Assembly (NCBI GenBank): GCA_024681175.1
Contig: JAILBI010000230.1
Coordinates: 1-9,294 of the forward strand
DNA length: 9,294 bases
Source: Acholeplasmatales bacterium
GTDB lineage: Bacteria; Bacillota_I; Bacilli_A; Acholeplasmatales; Anaeroplasmataceae
Direction: 5' to 3'
Part shown: positions 1,170-8,658 of the stretch, piece after piece
Layout of the letters: each line of letters opens with the position of its first letter
Position numbering within the stretch: the first letter of the stretch is position 1
Made by a program: the position numbers and the translations under genes
The notes under the pieces: model-generated
The model's database searches: none
What the model was told of the DNA's origin: nothing
What the model saw: the letters and a program-made list of their open reading frames with translations, nothing else

Positions 1170-2453
1170 ATGACTATTAATGAAATAATATTAGAATTAA
1201 AGGCTTTCGCAGAAGCAAATGATGGACAAGTTACATCAAAGGATATTGAAACTAAATATAATTACAAAATGGATTCTGACGAATATGAAAAAATCGTCAA
1301 TGGTCTTGAAAAGGAAGGAATCAATATCGTTGAAATTGAAACTGAGCTTAGCATCGATGATATCGATGATTCAATGATTGATAAAAGCTTAGAGGATGTA
1401 AAGGATGAAATCATTGAAAGTGATGATACATTATTAAAGGACATTGATATCAATGACCCTGTAAGAATGTATTTAAAGGATATTGGTAAGGTTAAGCCTT
1501 TCTATATCAACCCACTTGATAATAAGCCTAAAATTGATGATGCAGATATTAAAGATATTACTAATAGAATTGCATTAGCAAAAGAAATCGCAATATCTAG
1601 AACTATTATTTTAGGTCGTGAAGCTAAAGCAAAGAAGGAAGAAATTGACCAAGATCAGGAATCTACAATTTCTGCTGAACAATATTTTGAGCTTGAAACT
1701 ATTATCGCAAAGGGTGAAAGAGCTAAGGAAAGACTTGTTAATGCAAACCTTAGACTTGTTGTATCTATTGCTAAAAAATATATTTCAAGAGGTCTACCTT
1801 TCTTAGATTTAATTCAAGAAGGTAATATGGGTTTATTAAGAGCTGTAGATAAATATGATCCTGATAAAGGATTTAAATTCTCTACATATGCAACTTGGTG
1901 GATAAGACAAGCTATTTCAAGAGCGATTGCAGATCAAGCAAGAACTATACGTATTCCTGTTCATATGGTTGAAACTATTAATAAGCTTGTAAGAACACAA
2001 AGACAATTAGTTAATAAATTATCTCGTGAACCAAGCGATGAAGAGCTTGCAGAGGCTATGGGTATTTCAGTTGAAAAGGTTCAACAAATCCAAAAGGTTG
2101 CACAAGAGCCAGTATCTCTTGAAAGCCCAGTTGGTGAAGAGGATGATTCTCAATTAGGTGATTTCATTTTCGACCCACAAGCTTTATCTCCATATGAATA
2201 TACAAGAAATCAAAAATTAAGATTAGAAATTGACACACTTTTAAAAGAAGTTTTAACTGAACGTGAACAACAAGTTATTAGAATGCGTTATGGTCTAGAT
2301 GATGGTAGAGTTAAAACTTTAGAGGAAGTTGGTAAATATTTTGATATCACAAGAGAGCGTATTAGACAGATTCAAAAAAATGCCATTAAGAAATTAAAAT
2401 TCCCTAAGAGACAAGAAAGATTAAAACCATTTATTGATGAAACAAATAGATAA
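1170..2453 (+). CDS. rpoD: RNA polymerase primary sigma factor RpoD (SigA)
   Basis: A 427-residue housekeeping sigma factor that directs core RNA polymerase to -35/-10 promoters. Region 1.1-like sequence occupies about residues 1-70. Region 1.2 starts near [11 protein letters not shown] (about 96-106). Region 2 carries [21 protein letters not shown] (213-219) and [13 protein letters not shown] beginning at Phe237, with the Trp243-Trp244 pair used in -10 melting. Regions 3.0-3.2 follow, including the acidic finger [10 protein letters not shown]. The region 4.2 helix-turn-helix begins near Lys382 and contains [10 protein letters not shown], the -35-reading helix. An unusual insertion of roughly 50 residues separates region 1.2 from region 2.1 and is shared with the upstream paralog. 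The start at 1170 has GGGAGG (1156-1161) 8 bases upstream. Codon use is richer in C-ending codons than in the flanking paralog and trmK, in line with high expression. It overlaps trmK by 17 bases. Confidence 0.98.
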
Positions 2454-3099
2454 TAGAATTACCTTTCTTGCAAGCTTGGCAAAAGATTCTAATACACTTT
2501 TAGATGTAGGCTGTGACCATGGTCTTACAACTATAAAGGCTTTAAAATATTTTAATGTTAAAAATGCAATCGCATCTGATATTAATCCTGGTCCTTTAAA
2601 AATGGCAAAATATAACATTATAAAGGAAGGATTAATAGATAGATGTAAAATAATTTTAAGTGATGGACTTAAAAATATAGATGATGATTTTGATACATTA
2701 ATAATCTCTGGAATGGGTGGATTATTAATAAATAAAATTTTAATTGAATCATTTGATAAAATTAAAAATAAAAAATTAATAATTCAGCCTAATTGTGAAA
2801 GAGAAGATGTAAGAAAATTTTTAACAGGTCATGGCTTTAAAATTGAAAATGAATACGCATTTTATGATAAAGAAATTTATTATGAAATAATGATATTTGT
2901 TAATGGTAATTTAAATTATAATGATGATGAATTATTATATGGTCCATGCTTAATTAAAGAAAAAAATGAAGCATTTAAAAAGCATTATAAAATTAAAAGA
3001 GATAATTTATTATCAAGCATTCCTAAAATTAAAGATGAAAAAATTAGGGAGGAAAAAAAGAAGCTATGCGATAAATATAGCTTCTTAATAGGTGAATAA
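2437..3099 (+). CDS. trmK: tRNA (adenine(22)-N1)-methyltransferase TrmK
   Basis: A 220-residue class I SAM-dependent methyltransferase of the TrmK/YqfN family, which makes m1A at position 22 of tRNA in Gram-positive bacteria. The SAM-binding motif I is DVGCDHG (23-29). DINPGPL (48-54) is the acidic motif II loop, and SGMGG (91-95) follows the fourth strand; these three are diagnostic for the family. QPNCERE and YYEI lie in the C-terminal half of the fold, followed by a charged helical tail. The Firmicutes order dnaG-rpoD-trmK supports the call. The ATG at 2437 is used, with TTG at 2434 also possible. No good ribosome binding site precedes either, and the gene overlaps the end of rpoD by 17 bases, so translation is probably coupled to rpoD. 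A Nif3-like gene often follows trmK in Firmicutes; here an alpha/beta hydrolase does instead. Confidence 0.95.
3058..3086. other. Perfect 10-bp inverted repeat at the 3' end of trmK
   Basis: AAGAAGCTAT (3058-3067) and its exact complement ATAGCTTCTT (3077-3086) flank a 9-base spacer. The left arm is preceded by a run of A (3053-3059). Read on the - strand, the structure is a hairpin followed by seven T, the layout of an intrinsic terminator. On the + strand there is no T-run, and the ribosome binding site of the next gene (3090-3095) starts 3 bases after the hairpin. It lies within coding sequence, so chance cannot be excluded. Confidence 0.35.
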
Positions 3100-3100
3100 T

Positions 3101-3850
3101 ATGGAACAATTTAGCATTTATAAAACTAAAAATTATTATCGTACTTATTTTGTTGATGATAATAAAAGACCATTAATTTTTATTTGTGCAGGTGGTGGAT
3201 ATCAATATACATCTCCAAGAGAACAAGAGCCTATTATGAAAATCTTTTTTGAAAAAGGATATCATGTATGTATTGTAAATTATATGGAAGATAAATCAGT
3301 ATATCCTACTCCAGGTATGAATGTTGTTTATGCATTTAATAAAATGAAATTAGATAAAAGAGTATCTAAAATCATTGGCGTAGGCTTTTCAGCTGGAGCT
3401 CATGTATTATTAGATATTACATTTAAAAATGGTTTTTATAATGTTTGTAAGCCAGATTTATTAATTATTGGCTATCCTGTTATTACAACTGATCCTAAAT
3501 ATTCACATAAAGGCTCATTTAAAAACCTTTTAGGCTCATCATATAATGATCCTAAATTAATGGAAGAAGTATCACTTGAAAAAAAGGTTGGTAATGATGA
3601 ACCAGATATGTTTTTATGGGGTACAATAACTGATGAAAGTGTCGATGTTAATAATTCATTATTATTAATTAAAGCTTATCATGAGCATAAATTAAATTTA
3701 GAATATCACCTATTCCCAATGGGTGGTCATGGGCTTTCATGTGCAAATGAAACTGCATTTGAAAAGGGTAGTGAAAAGATTATTCCATATGTAGAAGATT
3801 GGACATCTTATGCATTAAAATGGTTAGATTATAAATTAAAAAATAATTAA
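3101..3850 (+). CDS. Alpha/beta hydrolase (esterase/lipase-like)
   Basis: A 249-residue serine hydrolase of the alpha/beta fold, most like the small esterase/acetyl-xylan-esterase-like group. The strand-loop CAGGGY (29-34) is an oxyanion-hole motif of the HGGG type with the His replaced. GFSAG (95-99) is the nucleophile elbow with Ser97. TDESV (177-181) fits the loop carrying the catalytic acid, probably Asp178, and His210 in GGHG completes the triad. No signal peptide or membrane segment is visible, so the enzyme is probably cytoplasmic. The substrate cannot be told from the sequence. The ATG at 3101 is chosen over the in-frame GTG at 3092 because AGGTGA (3090-3095) sits 5 bases ahead of it. 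It lies one base after trmK and 17 bases before pflA, so it is probably transcribed with both. Confidence 0.85.
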   Translation: MEQFSIYKTKNYYRTYFVDDNKRPLIFICAGGGYQYTSPREQEPIMKIFFEKGYHVCIVNYMEDKSVYPTPGMNVVYAFNKMKLDKRVSKIIGVGFSAGAHVLLDITFKNGFYNVCKPDLLIIGYPVITTDPKYSHKGSFKNLLGSSYNDPKLMEEVSLEKKVGNDEPDMFLWGTITDESVDVNNSLLLIKAYHEHKLNLEYHLFPMGGHGLSCANETAFEKGSEKIIPYVEDWTSYALKWLDYKLKNN

Positions 3851-3867: not shown

Positions 3868-4611
3868 ATGAAAGGTAAAATTCATTCATTTTTTGCAGGT
3901 GGTACAGTTGATGGACCTGGTATTAGATATGTAATATTTTTTAAAGGCTGTCCTATGAGATGTCTTTATTGTCACAATCCTGATACATGGGATATTAATG
4001 GTGCAGAAGAATATAGTGCAGATGAAATAGTATCTAAAGCATTAAAATATAAAGGATATTTTGGCTCTAAGGGTGGTATTACCTGTACAGGTGGTGAGCC
4101 TTTAGTTCAAATAGATTTTTTAATTGAATTATTTAAAAAATTTAAAGAAAATAATATTAATACAGCTTTAGATACATCAGGTATTATATTTGATCCAAAT
4201 AATAAAGAATTATTAAATAAATTTAATGAATTAATTAAATATACAGATTTAGTATTATTAGATATTAAGCATATTGATGATAATGAGCATATTAAATTAA
4301 CATCTAAATCTAATAAAAATATCTTATTATTTGCAAAATATTTATCAGATAATAATATTAAAATGTGGATAAGACATGTTTTAGTTCCAACTATAACATT
4401 AAATGATAATTATTTAATTAAAACAAAAGAATTTATTGATACACTAAAAACTGTAGAAAAAATAGAAGTATTACCTTATCATACTATGGCTAAATCTAAA
4501 TATGAAAAAATGAATTTAAAATATCCTTTAGAAGGCATCCCTGAGCCAACTAAGGATGAGGTAAGACATGCAAAAATATTATTAGGAGTCATAAAAGATG
4601 AATCTAAATGA
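3868..4611 (+). CDS. pflA: Pyruvate formate-lyase activating enzyme (radical SAM)
   Basis: A 247-residue radical-SAM activase, the normal length for PflA. The cluster motif CxxxCxxC is Cys28, Cys32 and Cys35 in KGCPMRCLYCHNPDTW; these bind the 4Fe-4S cluster that cleaves S-adenosylmethionine. TCTGGEP (72-78) is the family's SAM-binding motif. The N-terminal VDGPGIR and the YHTMAKSKYE stretch near the C-terminus are typical of PflA. The enzyme takes a hydrogen atom from the glycine of pyruvate formate-lyase, creating the stored glycyl radical under anaerobic conditions. Here the target glycine sits on a separate small protein (7101-7334), so PflA would act on that subunit alone or on its complex with PflB. 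GGAG (3857-3860) precedes the ATG by 7 bases. The 3' end overlaps the thioredoxin-like gene by 14 bases and ends in TGA. Confidence 0.97.
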   Translation: MKGKIHSFFAGGTVDGPGIRYVIFFKGCPMRCLYCHNPDTWDINGAEEYSADEIVSKALKYKGYFGSKGGITCTGGEPLVQIDFLIELFKKFKENNINTALDTSGIIFDPNNKELLNKFNELIKYTDLVLLDIKHIDDNEHIKLTSKSNKNILLFAKYLSDNNIKMWIRHVLVPTITLNDNYLIKTKEFIDTLKTVEKIEVLPYHTMAKSKYEKMNLKYPLEGIPEPTKDEVRHAKILLGVIKDESK

Positions 4612-4924
4612 TAAAAATTATAAAGAATATTTAAAAGGCATTAGTGTTGTTGAATTTTCTGGCGAGAGCTGTGCAAATTGTATTACACTTATGCCTATCT
4701 TACATAAATTAACTAAAGATAGAAGTGATTTAACACTACATCATGTTGAAGCAGGAGAGGACACAAAAGAAATATTATCTAGATATGAAATATTTTCTGT
4801 TCCAACTATTATGATCTTAAATGATGATAAAGAATTTGTAAGATGTAGAGGATTTCAACCAGAAGAAATTTTAGAAATTTGGCTTGATTCGAAGGTTGAA
4901 GAACTAAAAAATAGCTTAAAATAA
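4598..4924 (+). CDS. Thioredoxin-like protein with a CANC active site
   Basis: A 108-residue protein of the thioredoxin fold, the normal length of thioredoxin. The redox motif is Cys25-Ala-Asn-Cys28 in SGESCANC, in place of the usual WCGPC. The cis-proline loop VPT follows, after a strand ending YEIFSVPT. The C-terminal helix and the GFQPEEIL segment fit the family. Loss of the Trp and the Gly-Pro pair predicts a different redox potential from housekeeping thioredoxin, so it may act on particular partners. It overlaps pflA by 14 bases and has its own AGGAG (4584-4588) 9 bases before the ATG, so it is cotranscribed with pflA. A role in keeping the PFL cysteine pair or PflA reduced is a reasonable inference but is not shown. 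A terminator follows directly. Confidence 0.85.
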   Translation: MNLNDKNYKEYLKGISVVEFSGESCANCITLMPILHKLTKDRSDLTLHHVEAGEDTKEILSRYEIFSVPTIMILNDDKEFVRCRGFQPEEILEIWLDSKVEELKNSLK

Positions 4925-5005: not shown

Positions 5006-5051
5006 CTTAGTGGTTAAAAATGATTTAACTAGAGAGATGAGGATGAGATTT

Positions 5052-7085
5052 ATGAACAATGCATGGGAAGGATTTGTTCCTGGAAAATGGAATCAAGATT
5101 TTGAAATTGATGTTCGTGACTTTATTCAAAGAAATTATGTTCCTTACGAGGGAGATGGTTCTTTCTTACAAGGACCAACAGAGAATACTAAAAAGCTTTG
5201 GAATGAAGTATCAAAGTTAATGCAAGAGGAAAGAGAAAAGGGTGGAGTTTTAGAATGTGAAACAAAGATTGTTTCAAAGGTTAACGCTTATGGCCCTGGT
5301 TATATTGATAAGCCTCTTGAACAAATTGTTGGTTTACAAACAGATAAGCCATTAAAAAGAGCATTCATGCCAGATGGTGGTATTAGAATGGCATGCCAAG
5401 CTGCAGAACAATATGGCTATAAAATTGATGAAAATGTAGTTTCATTTTATGAAAAATATCGTAAAACACATAACGATGGTGTATTTGATGCATACACACC
5501 AGAAATGAGAAGATGTAGAACAGCTCACATCTTAACTGGTTTACCTGATACATATGGTCGTGGTAGAATCGTTGGTGATTATAGAAGAATTGCCCTTTAT
5601 GGTGTTGATTATTTAATCAAGATGAAGGAATTCGATAAGACTTTAATTGATGGTGAAATGACTCCTGATCGTATTAGAGATAGAGAAGAAATTTCTGAAC
5701 AAATTAAAGCTTTAAAGCAATTAAAGGAAATGGCTTTAGCTTATGGTATCGATATTTCAGCACCTTCAACAACTGCAAAGGAAGCAGTTCAAGCATTATA
5801 TTTTGGTTATCTTGCCGCAGTTAAGGACCAAAATGGTGCCGCAATGAGTATCGGTAGAAATTCAACTTTCTTAGATATTTATTTTGAAAGAGATTTTAAA
5901 AAAGGCATTTTAACTGAAAGTGAAGCACAAGAAATTGTTGACCACTTCATTATGAAATTAAGAATGATTCGTTTCGCTCGTATTCAATCTTATAATGAGC
6001 TTTTCTCAGGAGATCCTACATGGACTACTGAATCAATCGGTGGTATGGGTACAGATGGAAGAACTTTAGTTACTAAAACTTCATTCCGTTTCTTACATAC
6101 ACTTGATAATATCGGACCAGCTCCAGAACCAAATTTAACTATTTTATGGAGCAAGCGTCTACCAAATAATTTTAAATTATTCTGTGCAGATTTATCTATT
6201 AGAACATCAGCAATCCAATATGAATCTGATGAATTAATGAGACCTTATATGGGTGATGATTATTGTATTGCATGCTGTGTATCATCAATGAAGGTTGGTA
6301 AGGAAATGCAATTCTTCGGTGCAAGAGCAAACCTTGCAAAATGCTTACTTTACGCAATCAATGGTGGTAAGGATGAATTATTAAAGGATAAGGTAACAGG
6401 TAAGGCTGTACAAGTTGGTCCTGAATTTGCACCTGTCCTTGGTGATGGTCCACTTGATTATAAGGATGTAATGCATAAATATGAAAATATGATGGAATGG
6501 TTAGCTGGTATTTATGTAAATACATTAAACCTAATCCATTATATGCATGATAAATATTGTTATGAAGCATTAGAAATGGCCCTTCATGATACAAAGGTTC
6601 ATCGTTATTTTGCAACAGGTATCGCAGGATTATCAGTTGCAGTAGATTCACTTTCAGCAATCAAATATGCTAAGGTTACTCCAATTAGAAATGAAGAAGG
6701 CTTAGTTGTTGATTATAAAATTGAAGGTGACTTCCCTAAATATGGTAACAACGATGACAGAGTTGATGAAATTGCAGTATGGCTTGTAAGAACATTCATG
6801 AATATGATTAAGAAGCATTATACATATCGTGATTCTGAACCTACAATGTCAATTTTAACAATTACATCAAATGTTGTTTATGGTCAAAAGACTGGTAATA
6901 CACCAGATGGAAGAAGAGCAGGTGTACCTCTAGCTCCAGGCGCAAACCCAATGTCAGGAAGAGATACAAATGGTGCCCTTGCTTCACTTGAAAGTGTTGC
7001 TAAGCTTCCATATGATCATTCTCGTGATGGTATTTCAAATACATTTGCAATGACTCCAAGTGCCCTTGGTAAAGATGAAGATTAA
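5052..7085 (+). CDS. pflB: Pyruvate formate-lyase body, lacking the C-terminal glycyl-radical domain (split PFL)
   Basis: Formate C-acetyltransferase: pyruvate + CoA gives acetyl-CoA + formate, the main anaerobic pyruvate route. The protein follows one-chain PFLs closely from AWEGF at its N-terminus through [31 protein letters not shown] and NTPDGRRAG to SALGKDED, where it stops. Cys408-Cys409 in IACCVSS is the catalytic pair (Cys418-Cys419 in E. coli), and an extra Cys lies at 405. The glycyl-radical segment RVSGYAV, which should follow about 60 residues later, is absent and is encoded by the next gene. The length is 677 residues, against about 750-760 for one-chain PFLs. The ATG at 5052 is chosen because GAGG (5039-5042) precedes it, it falls 3 residues before the conserved AWEGF, and the GTG at 5010 lies at the predicted transcription start with no ribosome binding site. 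ATG at 5037 is possible. Codon use suggests high expression. Confidence 0.96.
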
Positions 7086-7100
7086 TAGGAGGAAAAAATT

Positions 7101-7334
7101 ATGTCACAAAGAGCAGAAAATTTAGTTCAAGTATTAGATACATATGTATCTGATGGTGGTTATCATTTAAATGTTAACGTATTTAATCGTGAAACATTAT
7201 TAGATGCGCAGGCTCATCCTGAAAAATATCCTCAGCTTACAATTCGTGTATCTGGATATGCAGTTAATTTCATCAAGCTTACAAAAGAGCAACAAGATGA
7301 TGTTATTTCAAGAACAATACATGAACAAATGTAA
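7101..7334 (+). CDS. Free-standing glycyl-radical subunit of pyruvate formate-lyase (GrcA-like, PflB C-terminal domain)
   Basis: A 77-residue protein matching the last part of ordinary PflB almost residue for residue: [25 protein letters not shown], then RVSGYAVNF (49-57) with the radical-bearing Gly52, and a C-terminal QQDDVISRT helix. PflA converts this glycine to a radical, which is passed to the Cys pair in the PflB body to start catalysis. It has a consensus AGGAGG (7087-7092) 8 bases before its ATG, so it is translated independently, and no terminator separates it from pflB. E. coli GrcA (YfiD, 127 residues) is a similar domain, but it is a spare part that rescues oxygen-cleaved PFL. 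Here it seems to be the only glycyl-radical domain for this PflB and so an obligatory subunit. It lies in the same frame as pflB, separated by TAA TAG. Its length plus that of PflB (754) equals a complete PFL. Confidence 0.93.
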
Positions 7335-7345
7335 TTAATAATAAG

Positions 7346-7380
7346 ACCTAATTGTTAGAAATCTAATAATTAGGTTTTTT
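7346..7380 (+). terminator. Intrinsic terminator of the pflB unit
   Basis: ACCTAATTGTTAG (7346-7358) pairs with CTAATAATTAGGT (7363-7375) around a 4-base AAAT loop, giving a 13-bp stem with one G-U pair. It is followed by a T-run (7374-7380). It ends 46 bases after the stop codon of the glycyl-radical gene and closes the two-gene PFL transcript. Confidence 0.88.
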
Positions 7381-7464: not shown

Positions 7465-8658
7465 ATGACAAGAGTAACAGGTGTAACTTCAAGAGGCTTA
7501 AGAGGTCCAATCATTAAAGAAGGAGATAATCTTGCTTCAATAGTTACAGATGTAGTTTTAAATGCTGCAAAAGAAGAAAATTTTCAAATTCATGATAAGG
7601 ATGTAATCGCAATTACTGAATCTGTTGTTGCAAGAAGCCAAGGCAATTATGCTAAGACTGATGCTATTGCTAAGGATGTAGCTAATAAGGTTCAATCAGA
7701 TACAGTAGGTGTAGTATTCCCTATCTTATCAAGAAATAGATTTTCTCATATCCTAGAAGGTATTGCACGTGGTGTTAAAAAAATTATTTTAATGCTTTCT
7801 TACCCAGCAGATGAAGTAGGAAACCATCTAATTTCATTAGATATGCTTGATGAAGCAAATATTGATCCATATATGGATGTTTTAACATTAAAGGAATACA
7901 GAGATACATTTGGTTATCCTAAGCATGAATTTACAGGCATTGATTATGTTGAATTTTATGAAAATTTAATTAAAAAACAAGGCTGTGATGTAGAAATTAT
8001 TTTCTCTAATAGAGTTAAAACAATTCTAGATTATACAGATAGAGTAATCTGTGCAGATATTCATACAAGACATAGAAATAAAAGAATTTTAAAAAATGCA
8101 GGTGCAAAAGTAGTATTAGGTCTTGATGATATTATGACATCAAGTGTAGATGGCTCAGGCTATAATGAAAAATATGGTCTTTTAGGCTCTAATATGTCAA
8201 GAAATAATGAAGTTAAATTATTTCCAAGAGAGGATTATAATTTAATTTTAACAGTTCAAAAAAATATTTTAGAAGCTACTGGTAAAAAGGTAGAAGTAAT
8301 GGTTTATGGTGATGGCGCATTCAAAGATCCTCAAGGAAAGATTTGGGAGCTTGCTGACCCAGTTGTATCACCATTCTTCACAGATGGACTTATAGGTACA
8401 CCAAATGAATTAAAATTAAAATATTTAGCTGATAATGAATTTGATTCATTAAAGGGTGAAGAGCTAAAACAAGCAATCGTTAAAAAGATTGAAACTAAAG
8501 AGAAGAATTTAGTTGGTAAAATGGAAACTCAAGGAACAACTCCAAGACAGCTTACAGACCTTTTAGGTTCACTTTGTGACCTTACATCAGGTTCTGGAGA
8601 TAAAGGAACTCCATTCATTTTAGTTCAAGGATATTTTGATAATTATTCAGATAATTAA
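7465..8658 (+). CDS. CofE-like (F420-0:L-glutamate ligase family) gamma-glutamyl ligase
   Basis: A 397-residue soluble protein of the F420_ligase (COG1478) family. The N-terminal segment is characteristic: a VTGVTSRGLRGPIIKEG start, then GDNLASIV (20-27), and HDKDVIAITESVVARSQG (43-60), the counterpart of the CofE phosphate/metal-binding start. In archaea and actinobacteria CofE adds glutamates to coenzyme F420-0 using GTP. This organism type is not expected to make F420 and no F420 genes are visible, so the substrate is probably something else. As I recall, members of this family have been proposed to replace FolC as folate polyglutamate ligases in bacteria such as Chlamydia. A THF riboswitch lies immediately downstream, which suits that idea. 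At 397 residues it is longer than archaeal CofE (about 250). It is a single-gene unit with its own promoter and terminator. The family call is fairly secure; the substrate is inferred. Confidence 0.85.
   Translation: MTRVTGVTSRGLRGPIIKEGDNLASIVTDVVLNAAKEENFQIHDKDVIAITESVVARSQGNYAKTDAIAKDVANKVQSDTVGVVFPILSRNRFSHILEGIARGVKKIILMLSYPADEVGNHLISLDMLDEANIDPYMDVLTLKEYRDTFGYPKHEFTGIDYVEFYENLIKKQGCDVEIIFSNRVKTILDYTDRVICADIHTRHRNKRILKNAGAKVVLGLDDIMTSSVDGSGYNEKYGLLGSNMSRNNEVKLFPREDYNLILTVQKNILEATGKKVEVMVYGDGAFKDPQGKIWELADPVVSPFFTDGLIGTPNELKLKYLADNEFDSLKGEELKQAIVKKIETKEKNLVGKMETQGTTPRQLTDLLGSLCDLTSGSGDKGTPFILVQGYFDNYSDN

Follow-up and report, generated by a model that had tools for sequence, protein, structure and literature searches.

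Can a pyruvate formate-lyase (PFL) normally be built from two polypeptides, with the catalytic body and the glycyl radical encoded by separate genes? Many anaerobes use PFL as a main route for turning pyruvate into acetyl-CoA and formate, and the radical glycine of the enzyme is a classic target of oxygen damage. The question is raised by an operon on the forward (+) strand of a 9,294-nucleotide stretch of DNA from an Acholeplasmatales bacterium, analysed over its whole length and called the window below. Its pflA gene (3868–4611) encodes a dedicated PFL-activating radical SAM enzyme beside the PFL (TIGR02493, 288.8 bits against a cut-off of 231.75). It is followed by a thioredoxin-like gene (4598–4924; PF00085, 44.4 bits) with a CANC motif (Cys25-Ala-Asn-Cys28, codons 4670–4681), and then by a PFL body of 677 residues (5052–7085) that carries Cys408-Cys409 (codons 6273–6278) and no radical glycine. 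The body stop, TAA at 7083–7085, is followed by an in-frame TAG at 7086–7088. An AGGAGG Shine-Dalgarno sequence (7087–7092, read in the sequence) precedes the ATG at 7101 of the next gene, 15 nt from the body stop. This gene (7101–7334, with the stop ending at 7334) encodes a GrcA3-like radical subunit of 77 residues with the motif RVSGYAV and its radical glycine, Gly52, at codon 7254–7256. We preferred the body start at 5052 over an upstream GTG at 5010 because the bodies of relatives are 676 residues long in 24 of 41 loci, their starts being chosen by script. The preliminary description of this DNA had proposed a body and a separate small reading frame with Gly52 and its AGGAGG, and these coordinates were confirmed in the sequence.

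A terminator-like hairpin 3′ of the small gene (7343–7378, + strand) is a weak feature, as two were found in the region against 1.1 expected by chance. Downstream of the operon, positions 7465–8658 encode a 397-residue protein with an F420 gamma-glutamyl ligase domain (PF01996, 174.5 bits), whose score is far below the NCBIfam F420 ligase cut-offs. Elsewhere in the window, two sigma-70-like genes lie in tandem (259–1155 and 1170–2453). The first encodes a 298-residue protein that by eye resembles a diverged sigma factor, directly 5′ of the rpoD-like gene; the family-library scan covered the rpoD-like gene.

Our first question was whether the two proteins add up to one enzyme. Against TIGR01255 (formate C-acetyltransferase, 744 positions) the body covers positions 1–664 with 1054.6 bits (cut-off 994.2) and the 77-residue protein covers 665–744, so that together nothing of the profile is missing. 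The lengths sum to 754 residues (677 + 77), that of a normal PFL, as first noted. In E. coli PFL numbering, the body match stops at 678 and the small-protein match starts at 699. The break had been placed just before the glycyl-radical domain. The missing part does lie on the next gene, but the exact boundary does not hold, as the break falls inside the Pfam Gly_radical family (106 positions; body 2–50, small protein 52–106). The radical domain and the body, which a PFL is expected to hold on the same chain, are thus on separate polypeptides.

We classified 176 loci (62 split, 113 fused, one run-off) and analysed 60 split pairs, 41 in the window's group and 19 in a second group, leaving out L155, a duplicate of L005, and L066, which has a frameshift. 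The motif R[VI]SGYAV is present in 60/60 small subunits and SGYAV in 0/60 bodies, while IACCVS is found in all 60 bodies. The Cys pair is invariant in 19 aligned bodies, and in the window we take it, by position, to correspond to Cys418/419 of the E. coli enzyme. Over 11 pairs of loci (ten from the window's group and one from Blautia), omega is 0.027–0.165 for the bodies and 0–0.144 for the small subunits, the latter on few changes; both genes are thus under purifying selection. Predicted structures add little. The body has a modest pLDDT of 70.4 and the small subunit a weak 66.5, and their best matches are E. coli PFL and YfiD. Judged from these sequence comparisons, the body and the small protein very likely form one enzyme. 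The large protein would give the barrel, the substrate site and Cys408/Cys409, and the 77-residue protein would dock into it. In E. coli PFL, Gly734 hands the radical to Cys419; here PflA would put the radical on Gly52, from where it would pass to Cys409.

Could the stops instead come from an assembly error, or be read through by recoding to give a fused protein? The two genes are in the same frame in the window, and also in 15 other loci of its clade (16/41 in all), as this explanation would require. It can be judged against the relatives. A scan of named genomes with the body gave 169 matching loci, of which 80 were kept. Among these 80, the eight closest (76–81% identical) are all split, and their hosts are metagenome-assembled genomes (MAGs) named Anaeroplasma, Anaeroplasmataceae, Acholeplasmatales, Mollicutes and Bacillales. 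In a survey of 150 genomes from the order of one close relative, 93 matched and 81 were above the PFL cut-off with one body each; the 12 with partial or sub-cut-off matches were left out of the body set. These 81 bodies comprise 38 split, 42 fused and one cut by a contig end. The window's group of 41 split loci consists of these 38, the window, L005 and L169.

Across this group the split has a consistent form. All 41 bodies end at LGK plus 0–6 residues, and all 41 small proteins are 76–82 residues long. The small gene is in another frame than the body in 25/41 loci, where stop-codon readthrough therefore cannot join the two proteins. The intergenic distance runs from −8 nt, an overlap, to 54 nt in the 40 loci where the script placed a start, all three stop codons are used, and AGGAGG precedes the small gene in 30/41 loci. 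A fused product made by error or recoding is thus an explanation to which we give next to no weight. A sequencing or assembly error, raised at the outset as a possible source of the stops, is excluded by 41 split loci of which 25 are out of frame. The further check was for an intact single gene in relatives, and within the window's PFL clade there is none. The same order does have 42 fused PFLs, which share 57–64% identity with the window's body and fall outside this clade; the tree included 37 of them, with 34 in one distant clade, two nearer and one elsewhere. With all 41 analysed clade loci split, the proposal that the split is the normal form in this lineage is borne out.

Two observations concern the junction itself. 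In L066, near 7067–7091, the PFL junction region has an apparent frameshift, and the locus is not in the split counts. Five fused PFLs of the same order (L088, L093, L094, L104, L120) and their relatives have 17–19 residues separating LGK from the NL of the radical domain, compared with seven in other fused PFLs. This insertion could be either the scar of a re-fusion or a loop that preceded splitting.

On a different reading, an intact PFL is encoded elsewhere, the small protein serves it as a GrcA/YfiD-type spare, and the large gene is a truncated relic. The best NCBIfam match of the small protein is a GrcA model, NF038360 (autonomous glycyl radical cofactor GrcA3), aligned over positions 3–78 of 78. 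The window scores 152.7 bits against a cut-off of 158, and one of 20 clade genomes scores above it. Solitary second copies of the small-subunit gene in some genomes also fit a spare. However, when 20 of the clade's 40 other genomes (completeness unreported; the window's own genome lies outside this count) were searched with PF02901, each had one intact protein, the split body, and G002 had a short degenerate fragment besides. The first 19 genomes searched had one PFL body above the cut-off each, that of G017 being the frameshifted L066. The full-length PflB that might carry the activity elsewhere, also listed for checking, was therefore not found in these 20 genomes, nor was any second full-length PFL-family protein. 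The body encoded next to the small gene lacks a radical domain that could be repaired, and for a relic it is unexpectedly well kept, being under purifying selection with the Cys pair present. We consider the spare-part reading very improbable, and we have high confidence that the window's two genes encode a two-subunit PFL, a view built on sequence in which the exchange of the radical subunit and the dithiol steps discussed below are inferred.

How does this pair compare with known systems? It shares profile coverage, the Cys-Cys pair, the radical glycine motif and a dedicated PflA with PflB (TIGR01255; E. coli PDB 1H16 and 2PFL). PflB of E. coli is one polypeptide, whereas the window has two, and pflA lies upstream in the window but downstream in 108 of the 113 fused loci. 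With GrcA/YfiD (PDB 6OWR) and T4 Y06I it has in common a separate small protein that carries the radical-loop part of PFL. The PFL that YfiD repairs, however, carries a radical domain itself, while the window's small protein is apparently the sole source of that domain. YfiD also has a disordered N-terminal part of ~60 residues, which the small proteins of the window's clade lack.

The E. coli system gives an indication of whether such a pair can work. In the YfiD study (PMC8683613), the end of PFL that oxygen cuts off is replaced by YfiD (GrcA), which performs best when its own 60-residue N-terminal part and PFL residues 696–733 are present; the window's pair has neither. Cleaved PFL with whole YfiD gave 15.9 µM radical. 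When PFL without 696–733 was combined with whole YfiD, radical uptake fell 32-fold to 0.5 µM, and isothermal titration calorimetry (ITC) as described there showed no binding of truncated PFL to YfiD, nor of cleaved PFL to truncated YfiD. The abstract words this as the 696–733 truncation preventing rescue by YfiD. Even so, a built pair of PFL without 696–733 and YfiD without its first 60 residues gave 2.7 µM radical and was active, with a kcat of 204 s−1 (PMC8683613). This built pair is close to the natural one, and its activity means that such a pair can work. Since the natural body is shorter than the truncated E. coli PFL, its small subunit must have some other way of docking more effectively. 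According to a 2025 review (PMC12288474), some facultative anaerobes express such factors and Fusobacterium nucleatum has none.

We next asked whether the split arose once. A tree of bodies was built from 144 of the 176 loci with the junction columns excluded (L155, L066, L133 and 29 near-duplicates, including L128 of the window's clade, were dropped). On it the split and fused states need three changes. The window's group is a single clade of 40 rows with an SH-aLRT support of 100. The other 19 split rows are in a different clade, inside which eight fused Ruminococcus-like rows are nested, and a mixture-model tree of 78 rows agrees with this topology. A single origin of all splits was rejected by the AU test (p-AU 0.00014) on 53 rows, with the groups named after the tree had been seen. 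On the same 53 rows and with the same post hoc grouping, one origin within the second group was weakly rejected (p 0.024), owing to the eight fused rows inside it. A count of minimum changes cannot distinguish gain from loss, so re-fusion may account for some of the fused rows; the eight nested ones may be re-fusions, replacements or unsplit survivors. The position of pflA is another sign that the two split groups were constructed separately, as it is upstream of the body in 33/41 loci of the window's group and downstream in 18/19 of the second.

The hosts of the second group include Lachnospiraceae (Blautia hansenii, L023, is one), Oscillospiraceae, one Spirochaetaceae MAG and one Coriobacteriaceae MAG. 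Surveys of two classes extended this; the labels Clostridia and Coriobacteriia used here are inferred from the genomes at the survey centres, Blautia and the Coriobacteriaceae MAG. Among the 98 genomes above the cut-off in the class of the Blautia genome, ten have a split PFL, as judged by profile coverage, with those ten then read in sequence; nine belong to the second group and one (G354, locus L169) to the window's. The class of the Coriobacteriaceae MAG shows the split form in 13 of 14 genomes. Twelve of these are new (L181–L192), were put in the second group by class and tails, and stand outside the locus counts and trees; the thirteenth is L067. At L169, in one of the genomes from the Blautia-class survey, a window-group PFL is accompanied by a thioredoxin-like gene of the CDAC type, which could reflect either transfer or a misplaced contig.

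What the split might be for is a separate matter. The radical subunit could be exchanged after oxygen cuts at Gly52 while the body stays reusable, and it might then be made in excess, through a stronger ribosome site and, in a few genomes, extra gene copies. In the window, the predicted anti-Shine-Dalgarno pairing is −10.2 kcal/mol for the small-gene leader versus −5.6 kcal/mol for the body. AGGAGG occurs in 0/41 body leaders of the clade, and the pairing of the small gene is stronger than that of the body in 34/41 loci, equal in five and weaker in two. The body starts were picked partly by Shine-Dalgarno strength, which works against finding a stronger small-gene site. In the second group the small-gene pairing is stronger in 12/19 loci.

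Five extra small-subunit genes without an adjacent body were found (L156–L160), and G002 has one more. In L157–L160 the extra and operon copies differ by 1, 0, 0 and 0 residues and by 18, 14, 37 and 5 of 231 bases, respectively. Such protein-identical second copies are new here. In L160 (region 2430–3228) the extra copy, identical in protein, lies 28 nt 3′ of a gene for rubrerythrin; genes for NifU-like and SufB proteins are found farther upstream. The other extra copies follow other genes, L156 and L159 apparently valyl-tRNA synthetase as judged by eye. With rubrerythrin as the neighbour of one extra copy in five, the link to oxygen defence rests on one case.

These features bear on the possibility that the two-subunit PFL is real but that the split serves regulation, with activity set by how much radical subunit is present or by its association, or is a neutral fission. 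Close coupling of the genes (gaps of 1–3 nt in 8/41 loci) fits a fixed ratio, and drift could fix a split once the genes are co-translated. The stronger small-gene ribosome site and the protein-identical extra copies fit renewal better, without proving it.

A further feature was noticed post hoc: a dithiol tends to accompany the split bodies. A thioredoxin-like gene is present in 26/41 loci of the window's group (25 CANC, one CDAC), and none was detected in the flanks retrieved for the 113 fused PFLs or for the 19 second-group loci. The gene cannot be essential, being absent from 15/41 loci; for two of these, the upstream sequence is shorter than 200 bases. In the second group the bodies themselves run 9–52 residues past LGK, and 27 of 31 extensions (15/19 in the analysed pairs and 12/12 in the new Coriobacteriia loci) hold at least two cysteines, as C-x(0-3)-C in 20 found by script and C-x4-C in seven found by eye. 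In L164, L167 and L168 a small third reading frame between body and radical subunit takes the place of the Cys extension. Its start resembles that of the radical subunit and its end carries a Cys motif similar to those of the body extensions, while the radical glycine motif is absent; neither Pfam (E 0.1) nor the PDB sequences (E 1) gave a match to that of L168. L162 has neither extension nor third frame. None of the 41 bodies of the window's group has a cysteine past LGK. In the 45 residues after LGK, C-x(0-4)-C occurs in 0/113 fused PFLs, and any cysteine in 6/113.

Shared ancestry within each group reduces this pattern to a few independent events. It nevertheless points to a possible benefit of a dithiol to a split PFL, for example by re-reducing the Cys pair while the radical subunit is off. 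The active-site cysteines might be exposed when that subunit is missing, and the partner would be the CANC thioredoxin-like protein in the window's group and the Cys-bearing extension of the body in the second group. Ribonucleotide reductase offers an analogy with its C-terminal cysteine pair. A dithiol in both split groups again fits renewal better than regulation or neutral fission, without proving it, and we regard those two readings together as a real but lesser possibility. Renewal after oxygen damage is a plausible role of the split on this comparative evidence. The association itself, not seen with the 113 fused PFLs, is new and is the most original lead of this work.

Is the split form known already? 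Two PDB entries named 'Formate acetyltransferase' are PFL bodies without a radical domain. One, 38LA (687 residues), ends in LGKED and could be a cut construct; the other, 38LB (739 residues), ends in a Cys tail of the Coriobacteriia type. By sequence both are other proteins than the window's, and no chain of either matched in a search of the PDB with the small subunit. Given these bodies, the split PFL is very likely already known to the depositors. A search of the open-access literature, which leaves most subscription papers outside its scope, found no paper describing it. With the second split group and these PDB bodies, the split PFL is real, conserved and more general than the preliminary description supposed.

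We can tentatively imagine a class of renewable glycyl radical enzymes, though the odds are somewhat against so broad a reading. The body would be kept, the oxygen-cut radical subunit replaced, and the cysteines re-armed by a dedicated dithiol. Two separately placed lineages would have done this with different dithiols, a CANC gene in one and a Cys-containing C-terminal arm or third small protein in the Clostridia and Coriobacteriia. The split may let a gut bacterium replace only the oxygen-destroyed part of its PFL. It offers a natural system for the docking of a radical subunit without the E. coli recognition element, and lets one ask whether the supply of that subunit limits the oxygen tolerance of anaerobes. 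Should whole bacterial groups prove to have the split form as their sole PFL, what is a repair trick of YfiD in E. coli would be the normal construction of the enzyme there.
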